DNA of 39,673 bases, taken from Methylococcales bacterium OPU3_GD_OMZ. GTDB taxonomy: Bacteria; Pseudomonadota; Gammaproteobacteria; Methylococcales; Methylomonadaceae. The stretch is from assembly GCA_001901525.1 (NCBI GenBank), contig MPSY01000005.1, forward strand, positions 1 to 39,673, read 5' to 3'. Below, one piece after another: positions 14,215 to 15,246 of the stretch (positions within the stretch are counted from its first letter, which is position 1; each line of letters starts with the position of its first letter). The notes beneath the pieces are model-generated. The model did not search any database and was not told the DNA's origin. It saw nothing but the letters and a program-made list of their open reading frames with translations. The position numbers and the translations under genes are program-made.

Positions 14215-15246
14215 ATGAAATACATTATTACATTCCTTTTATTAACCCTGTCCCTACGAGGCCAGTGAGCACTGTGAAGTAATCCATCATTGCCGGTCGG
14301 CAATTCTGATCGAGGCGTGGGCCTTTGGGCTGGACAGATTATGGTTGGCCTTGATAATTCAAACCAATACATAGACTGGTGGCACGAAGCCATCCCTGGA
14401 TCTGGTGAGGGGTTTGACCATGAGGGCACATTAACATCTGTTATTATCAACCCATCTTTAACTATCGGTCTGTCCAATTATTGGAATATAACCATTAACA
14501 AAACCCTTGGCCGGCGAACCATGACGTGGGCAGGGGACACAACAACGATCCATCATCGAAATGAGGGCACAGAAAGTAATTTTATCAATGCGATCGGGGG
14601 ATATCTTGGCGATACAAAACTTATGCTTCGCTACCTTGTTTTCAATGACGGTCAGGGACCTGGGAAGCGTTTGTTTTTAGGTGGTGGATTTATTTTACCA
14701 TCTAAGAACACATTGTCGTCTGATCCCTTTTTTCTGAGTGGTAATGAAAAAACAGACCATCGTCATTTTGCCTTAAGCGATGGGGTTTATAAGGGGTGTG
14801 TCGAAATTCAATTGTTTAAAAAGAAAGTGACAAACCCTGTTTTCGTGGGTGGAACAATTTATGTTGAAAAGGTTCTCTCAGAGAATGACTATGGTTTTAA
14901 GGCATCTGATATATACGATCTTTCTCTCACTGCATTTTCTAAGAAAATTACTGCAATAAACGGATCATTGGGCACCAACGTTGTTGCGCGACATACAACA
15001 ACTGCTTATTGGAATGGATTTGAAACCCCAAATTCTCGAGCAACGGTGGTAACGGTTGGATTTGGTGGATTGTGGAACCTGGATGTGGGTGGTATAAGTT
15101 TAAATATCCAGAAACCCTTTTTTATTGATGGTGTTTTTTCGGGGATTGAGGGTGAACTAGATCAACGAGTAGGTGTATGGCAGGTAAGCATGAGCTATAG
15201 GCGCTTGTTGGACTTTTCTATCCCTTGGCTGGATCCCTTGAAGTAG
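14215..15246 (+). CDS. Candidate selenoprotein: exported β-strand-rich protein with U-x-x-U motif
   Basis: Read from ATG 14215, the frame runs to TAG at 15244-15246 (343 residues) if two in-frame UGA codons, 14266-14268 and 14275-14277, are translated. The first 17 residues (MKYIITFLLLTLSLRGQ) form a signal peptide. Residues 18-21 are then UGA-Ala-Leu-UGA, i.e. U-A-L-U, where a C-x-x-C would be natural. The rest (NPSLPVGNSDRGVGLWAGQ onward) has many alternating polar/hydrophobic strands and Gly/aromatic turns, like an outer-membrane or surface β-barrel. I do not recognise the family. A GGUC-loop hairpin begins 9 bases after the second UGA. Neighbouring genes (gyrA, dciA) end in UGA, so the code is standard. 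Other readings: a TTG start at 14290, which loses the export signal, or a pseudogene. The function, perhaps redox or metal binding at UxxU, is inferred. Confidence 0.6.
14286..14310 (+). ncRNA. Candidate bacterial SECIS hairpin
   Basis: The upper stem pairs TTGCC (14290-14294) with GGCAA (14299-14303), closing a four-base loop GGTC (14295-14298). A lower stem pairs ATCA (14286-14289) with TGAT (14307-14310), leaving bases 14304-14306 bulged. The first loop G is 17 bases after the second UGA and 26 after the first. From memory, bacterial SECIS elements have a G-bearing apical loop some 16-37 bases past the UGA, and the E. coli fdhF element has a GGUC loop about 18 bases past it. Both UGAs fit this rule. 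It was judged by eye, not folded. Confidence 0.55.

Follow-up and report, generated by a model that had tools for sequence, protein, structure and literature searches.

A selenoprotein family of Neomarinimicrobiota with a Sec-x-x-Sec motif ahead of a predicted outer-membrane barrel, and its proposed role in soft-metal handling

The stretch of DNA analysed here (39,673 nucleotides; hereafter the window) carries between a psuG-like gene (PF04227) and yggS-like (PF01168), gyrA and gyrB genes a reading frame that translates from 14215 to 15246 as MKYIITFLLLTLSLRGQ-stop-AL-stop-SNPSLPVG..., the two internal stops both being TGA. The features of the gene are as follows.

14215..15246, + strand: predicted selenoprotein coding sequence of 343 residues with two UGA read-throughs, from ATG 14215 to TAG 15244-15246 (homologues align over residues 1-343).
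14215..14262, + strand: predicted signal peptide, codons 1-16 (from the sequence; nearly all homologues have a hydrophobic N-terminus with terminal GQ).
14266..14268, + strand: first predicted Sec UGA, codon 18 (TGA in 83/84 loci, TGT in 1; Cys in Bacteroidota homologues).
14275..14277, + strand: second predicted Sec UGA, codon 21 (TGA in 83/84 loci, TGT in 1; Cys in Bacteroidota homologues).
14290..14303, + strand: putative bSECIS hairpin UUGCC-GGUC-GGCAA (covariation at synonymous positions; in the MFE fold; bSECIS model of PMC13188914).
14335..15213, + strand: modelled 12-strand outer-membrane beta-barrel, residues 41-333 (AlphaFold2, pTM 0.68, mean pLDDT 64.5).
14551..14565, + strand: HHRNE, residues 113-117, a conserved HHR-x-E (among 46 sequences H113, H114 and R115 are at least 90% conserved and E117 is invariant; kept in Cys homologues).
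14758..14766, + strand: HRH, residues 182-184, a conserved H-x-H (among 46 sequences H182 is invariant and H184 at least 90% conserved; kept in Cys homologues).

After the signal peptide the window protein reads Q-UGA-A-L-UGA-S-N-P-S-L-P-V-G and continues into the 12-strand barrel. A preliminary description had ATG 14215 opening a signal peptide in a frame broken only by two UGAs, and both the translation and the homologues confirm this. Cleavage probably falls between G16 and Q17 (AxG-Q or LxG-Q), and the Gln that the predicted cleavage leaves at the N-terminus can form pyroglutamate. Standard annotation would end the gene at codon 18 or begin it near 14290, and so hide it. No Pfam family matches the window protein, nor does any NCBIfam family even at an E-value of 10. 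UGA had also been called a normal stop in the window. It is a stop there, at the end of gyrA, but a rare one, used by 1 of the 25 window genes counted (18 end in TAA and 6 in TAG).

The organism behind the contig is not the one to which it was assigned. The best matches in a gyrA scan of named genomes (93%, 91% and 91%) are all labelled Neomarinimicrobiota, and the window gyrB reaches no more than about 55-58% identity with any sequence from the group to which its assigned assembly, G000, belongs. That assembly has a gyrB of its own (C204), which matches its congeners and is 55% identical to the window gyrB. On this basis we assign the contig, by sequence comparison, to Candidatus Neomarinimicrobiota/Marinimicrobia (SAR406), mis-binned into an unrelated and probably gammaproteobacterial genome. 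The mis-binning explains why no barrel homologues were found among the relatives of G000, and it makes the lack of selA, selB and selD matches over cut-off in G000 uninformative about the window's organism. A tRNA-Sec match in G000 at 47.5 bits was rejected, ARAGORN identifying it as tRNA-Ser(tga). A similar mis-bin is L036, in a Flammeovirgaceae bin (G070).

Within Neomarinimicrobiota the pair of UGAs is strongly conserved. All six homologues from neighbouring genomes (50-70% identity) share Q-TGA-A-L-TGA, and a profile search of 245 phylum genomes recovered the gene in 83, almost always with two TGAs and with whole-protein E-values down to about 1e-14. The conservation goes well beyond what chance would give. 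Homologues at 22-70% identity align over their full length, and in 46 diverse sequences spanning this range of identity to the window protein Q17, U18, U21 and N23 are invariant. The 84 readable loci have TGA/TGA in 82 cases, TGA/TGT in one (L151, QUALC) and TGT/TGA in one (L161, QCSLU). The pair to which the preliminary description drew attention is therefore kept across the phylum, with TGT once at each site, and it is Cys-x-x-Cys in the Bacteroidota homologues discussed below.

These comparisons bear on two explanations that dispense with selenocysteine. The first, sequencing error or a decaying gene, had already been thought an improbable source of two UGAs at just these positions. A minority of copies do carry another stop (for example TAA in G074), but the same TGA pair recurs in dozens of independent genomes, which excludes sequence error, and selection is seen on both the protein and the hairpin; we consider this explanation extremely improbable. 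The second supposes a 17-codon leader peptide that ends at the UGA and a barrel that begins at an internal TTG or ATG at codon 26 (14290). Codon 26 is indeed TTG (window) or ATG in the near clade. In 41 of 74 distinct sequences, however, it is CTC, CTT, TTA or CTA, none of them a start codon, and no internal start is therefore conserved; residues 17-25 are conserved as protein, the Cys homologues are one continuous ORF, and a barrel without a signal peptide would be unable to reach the outer membrane. The leader-peptide explanation is accordingly scarcely credible.

The hairpin downstream of the second UGA agrees with the bSECIS consensus, which has a loop of 3-9 nt, an upper stem of 4-16 bp, G in the first two loop positions, an N1-G-(G/U)-N2 element with N1:N2 paired and 16-37 nt from UGA to loop (PMC13188914). 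The stem is 5 bp long, the loop is GGUC or AGUU, N1:N2 is paired in 74/74 sequences and both spacings are in range, with 26 nt from the first UGA to the loop and 17 nt from the second. These distances allow one hairpin to fit both codons, and we infer from the sequences that a single element serves the two UGAs, nine bases apart. The family would thus be a clear natural example in which one hairpin apparently serves a pair of Sec codons.

Support for the hairpin comes from covariation and none from energy, since the RNA fold z-score of the 81-nt stretch (+0.70) is not significant. The stem pair 26-35, which joins the third bases of a Leu and a Gly codon, is paired in 71 of 74 distinct sequences and occurs in six types (G-C, C-G, U-A, A-U, G-U and U-G); when the partners were shuffled a mean of 32.6 were paired, and 0 of 5000 shuffles did as well as 71. 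The loop pair 29-32 is G-C in 50 sequences and A-U in 24, and so matched in 74/74, and in almost every sequence its two bases are the third positions of a Pro and a Val codon. CCG-GTC is seen in 50/74 sequences against 2.5% expected from the codon use of the same genes. The fraction paired is 0.957 in register, compared with 0.27-0.63 when the partners are slid.

Of the 245 phylum genomes, 166 have a selB match above the curated cut-off and 148 a tRNA-Sec match above the gathering score. The preliminary description had looked to the genome for Sec machinery, and for the barrel family this is borne out: although selA, selB and selD are missing from the mis-binned assembly, selB is present in 66 of the 83 genomes with the gene, and selB or tRNA-Sec in 77 of them, as against 115 of the 162 genomes without the gene (p = 6e-5). 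Among the genomes nearest to the window, G061, G062, G063 and G066 all have selB. The remaining six gene-bearing genomes have no match to selB or tRNA-Sec, and incompleteness of these genomes is the likely cause. Reassignment or leaky reading of UGA in these genomes, for instance as Trp, would be in keeping with the rarity of TGA stops in the window. It is nevertheless highly implausible, given that the aligned residue at both sites is Cys and not Trp, that the SECIS covaries, that selB and tRNA-Sec are found in the genomes and that gyrA ends in TGA. Taken from the sequence comparisons, selenocysteine is almost certainly the residue encoded at both UGAs.

In one genome (G074; locus L149, contig C28) selB is in two pieces, one of them with a TGA and a TAG, and an in-frame TAA interrupts the barrel gene. 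This is possibly a joint decay in which the Sec trait is being lost, although it is a single case in a single-cell genome, where sequence errors are conceivable.

The body of the protein was modelled with AlphaFold2 from a seven-sequence alignment. Among solved structures the model is closest to FapF (PDB 5o65; Z 23.0, rmsd 2.9 over 255 residues) and the COG4313 channel Pput2725 (PDB 4rl8; Z 21.9, rmsd 2.9 over 250 residues), with autotransporter barrels scoring lower (Z 16-18). A profile search of PDB sequences found no relative (best E 0.23), NCBIfam gave only pilus_FilC, weakly, on family members, and PF13557 gave 3 weak matches (E 0.01 or better) in 46 members, L197 exceeding the gathering score (23.0 vs 22). 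The model makes an outer-membrane barrel very likely, and the envelope location suggested earlier is upheld by the signal peptide together with this modelled barrel.

Pput2725 (COG4313/PF13557, Phenol_MetA_deg) shares with the window protein a 12-strand barrel and a short N-terminal segment ahead of strand 1. It differs in being only 12% identical and in its Pfam family, the window protein having no Pfam match; HHRxE, HxH and the Sec pair belong to the new family alone. The amyloid secretion channel FapF has the same 12-strand shape but is also 12% identical, and fap genes were not noticed among the neighbours of the barrel. In 4rl8 the barrel lumen is filled by the N-terminal fourteen residues (PMC4493636). 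Residues 5-35 of our model, which include the U-x-x-U, have pLDDT <50, and a lumen position for this motif is therefore borrowed from Pput2725.

A clue to function comes from the neighbouring genes in the deep branch of the family. ORFs flanking the barrel gene there include MerT (PF02411 over cut-off), an HMA/MerP-like protein, an ArsR-type regulator, a CopZ-type 2Fe-2S metallochaperone (NF047645 over cut-off) and MerA (TIGR02053, 551 bits, cut-off 454). Among the 23 loci L185-L207, 15 have a MerTP, MerT, MerP or CopZ match within about 3 kb, and MerA at L186 brings the mer-type total to 16/23. MerT occurs in 20 of the 245 phylum genomes, 16 of which also have the barrel gene (p = 1.4e-5), and in 12 of these 16 genomes MerT and the barrel gene share a contig and are no more than about 6 kb apart. 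Such neighbours suggest that the protein uses selenium to capture mercury or similar metals at the cell surface. Within 3 kb of the near loci L157-L171 there are no mer genes, and no mer genes lie near the window gene, which sits between psuG and yggS/gyrA. A mercury role for the window's own locus was set aside on the grounds that mer genes are missing nearby and MerT is absent from G063.

A second phylum shows the same association, with Cys where the Neomarinimicrobiota protein has Sec. Searching 395 Bacteroidota genomes with a profile gave two full-length homologues (L261 and L262), which are continuous single ORFs only about 22% identical to the selenoprotein. Their predicted mature N-termini read SCPACSNPAL or ACPACSNPAL, and HHR-x-E, H-x-H and a W-x-G...PNS are kept; L261, with CPACSNP, aligns by hhalign with E 3e-18. 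L261 is flanked by an HMA-thioredoxin protein on one side and MerTP (273 bits, cut-off 180) on the other, an ArsR regulator also being present, and L262 adjoins an HMA-thioredoxin gene and a heavy-metal P-type ATPase. Weaker Bacteroidota matches with CDICGCG, QTCSCAG and other N-terminal motifs may, to judge from their sequences, belong to a wider superfamily.

Taken as a whole, our preferred explanation, to which we give a probability of roughly 0.7, is that the gene encodes a secreted outer-membrane selenoprotein that would act as a channel or receptor for soft metals, mercury above all, and would bind them through its Sec-x-x-Sec pair. Cleavage of the signal peptide would expose a mature N-terminus (p)Gln-Sec-x-x-Sec-x-Asn-Pro, placed, by analogy with Pput2725, in or at the mouth through which the lumen opens to the periplasm. 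At that position the selenol pair, possibly together with the conserved HHRxE and HxH, would act as ligand for a soft metal. Hg(II) or an organomercurial is the most probable candidate, and the bound metal would be handed to a periplasmic HMA/MerP domain and then to MerT and MerA. In the window's clade the barrel is kept without adjacent mer genes, so there it may serve soft-metal scavenging or sensing, alone or with unlinked partners. The soft-metal or mercury role taken by itself is favoured rather than firmly established, and we give about even odds to the more specific picture of a phylum-wide outer-membrane mercury/soft-metal channel in which an N-terminal diselenol makes the capture and one SECIS serves both UGAs.

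The preliminary description had left the U-x-x-U at the mature N-terminus as either a diselenide or a metal-binding site. The motif itself stands, and of the two roles we lean towards metal binding. As a redox pair it would make the protein a diselenide oxidoreductase that reduces disulfides or oxidants at the outer membrane and is supplied by thioredoxin-like partners in the periplasm. Most C/U-x-x-C/U selenoproteins are redox proteins according to a review, and the Bacteroidota neighbour is an HMA-thioredoxin fusion. But the fold here is a barrel and not a thioredoxin fold, the motif is carried on a short N-terminal segment with no active-site fold around it, and the neighbours are metal genes, all of which make the redox pair unlikely. 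A little less likely again is a COG4313-like channel for hydrophobic molecules in which the selenols take methylmercury or another organometal and not Hg(II). FapF and the COG4313 channel are the closest solved folds, COG4313 has been linked to hydrophobic uptake (PMC4493636) and SAO (Sec-assisted organometallic) systems also use Sec; against this, no MerB was seen among those neighbours for which an annotation was made.

The preliminary description knew of no protein with this architecture, and none is found among the 119 prokaryotic selenoprotein families inventoried in 2026, an inventory that lists two further kinds of barrel, each with a single Sec, and a small number of U-x-x-U families, but no U-x-x-U barrel (PMC13188914). 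We regard the barrel as a new selenoprotein family. A survey of the literature, outside preprints and most subscription papers, found nothing joining Neomarinimicrobiota with a selenoprotein and nothing on a U-x-x-U barrel family; a 2016 survey of selenium use (PMC5029168) lists SAR406 genomes in one of its tables. Methods based on Cys/Sec pairs would tend to miss the family, because nearly all its members have Sec and the Cys homologues are so distant. The authors of deep-Sep note that it may not correctly identify selenoproteins without Cys-containing homologues (PMC12013277).

Known selenoproteins resemble the new family in part. NF041115 (UxxU_metal_bind, a MerP-like HMA selenoprotein) and NF045683 (a MerT/CopZ fusion selenoprotein) likewise belong to mer-type systems, where their Sec probably binds a heavy metal, but they are HMA or inner-membrane proteins with no relation in sequence or fold to the barrel. 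The GSU2204 family (NF041027, an MtrB/PioB-type barrel) and the TonB-dependent receptor NF049945 are outer-membrane barrels with selenoprotein members, but belong to other families with one Sec each, and neither matches the window protein in NCBIfam. SelL is a U-x-x-U selenoprotein. The Prx-like UxxU selenoproteins also carry a pair of Sec residues with U-x-x-U spacing (GOS paper). Both kinds are thioredoxin-fold proteins, whereas here the model is a barrel and there is no thioredoxin Pfam match.

The family adds a widespread group to the marine selenoproteins, places selenocysteine pairs on a predicted outer-membrane barrel and would tie selenium to mercury chemistry in uncultured marine bacteria. 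We know of no recognised outer-membrane component of mer operons. A review of mer mentions the outer membrane once only. If our explanation is true, the barrel would provide a selenium-based first step of mer-type metal handling at the outer membrane.

Several further genes were seen beside the barrel. Just upstream of it, L172, L174 and L176 encode a small Cys-rich protein, exported and 116-118 residues long, of which the L174 copy has no NCBIfam or Pfam match. At L175, about 1.2 kb upstream, is an ORF that by appearance resembles a membrane permease of the SO_0444/ArsP kind. Downstream of the barrel at L203 (offset about 3761, +) a MerP-like HMA protein has GMT-U-HSC, a putative U-x-x-C metal site. 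A tandem second barrel accompanies the U-x-x-U gene at L187 and L189 (offset about 4102 in both) and at L193 (offset about 4002). It reads QCAL-U-NAPPPPVGG, its TGA followed by the same CCG-GTC-GG hairpin core, and is all-Cys at L193, QCAMCNSPPPPAGG.

A flavoprotein of the lipoamide-dehydrogenase/MerA type (L277:3407-4840:-, L278:10676-12067:-, L272:1804-2040:+ and L228:3-413:-) has TGA at its first redox Cys, GGT-U-VNEGC-IPTK; TIGR01350 is over cut-off and MerA scores lower. It lies upstream of the barrel in three genomes and on a separate contig in G253, and to judge by its sequence it is possibly a new selenoprotein in these four genomes.
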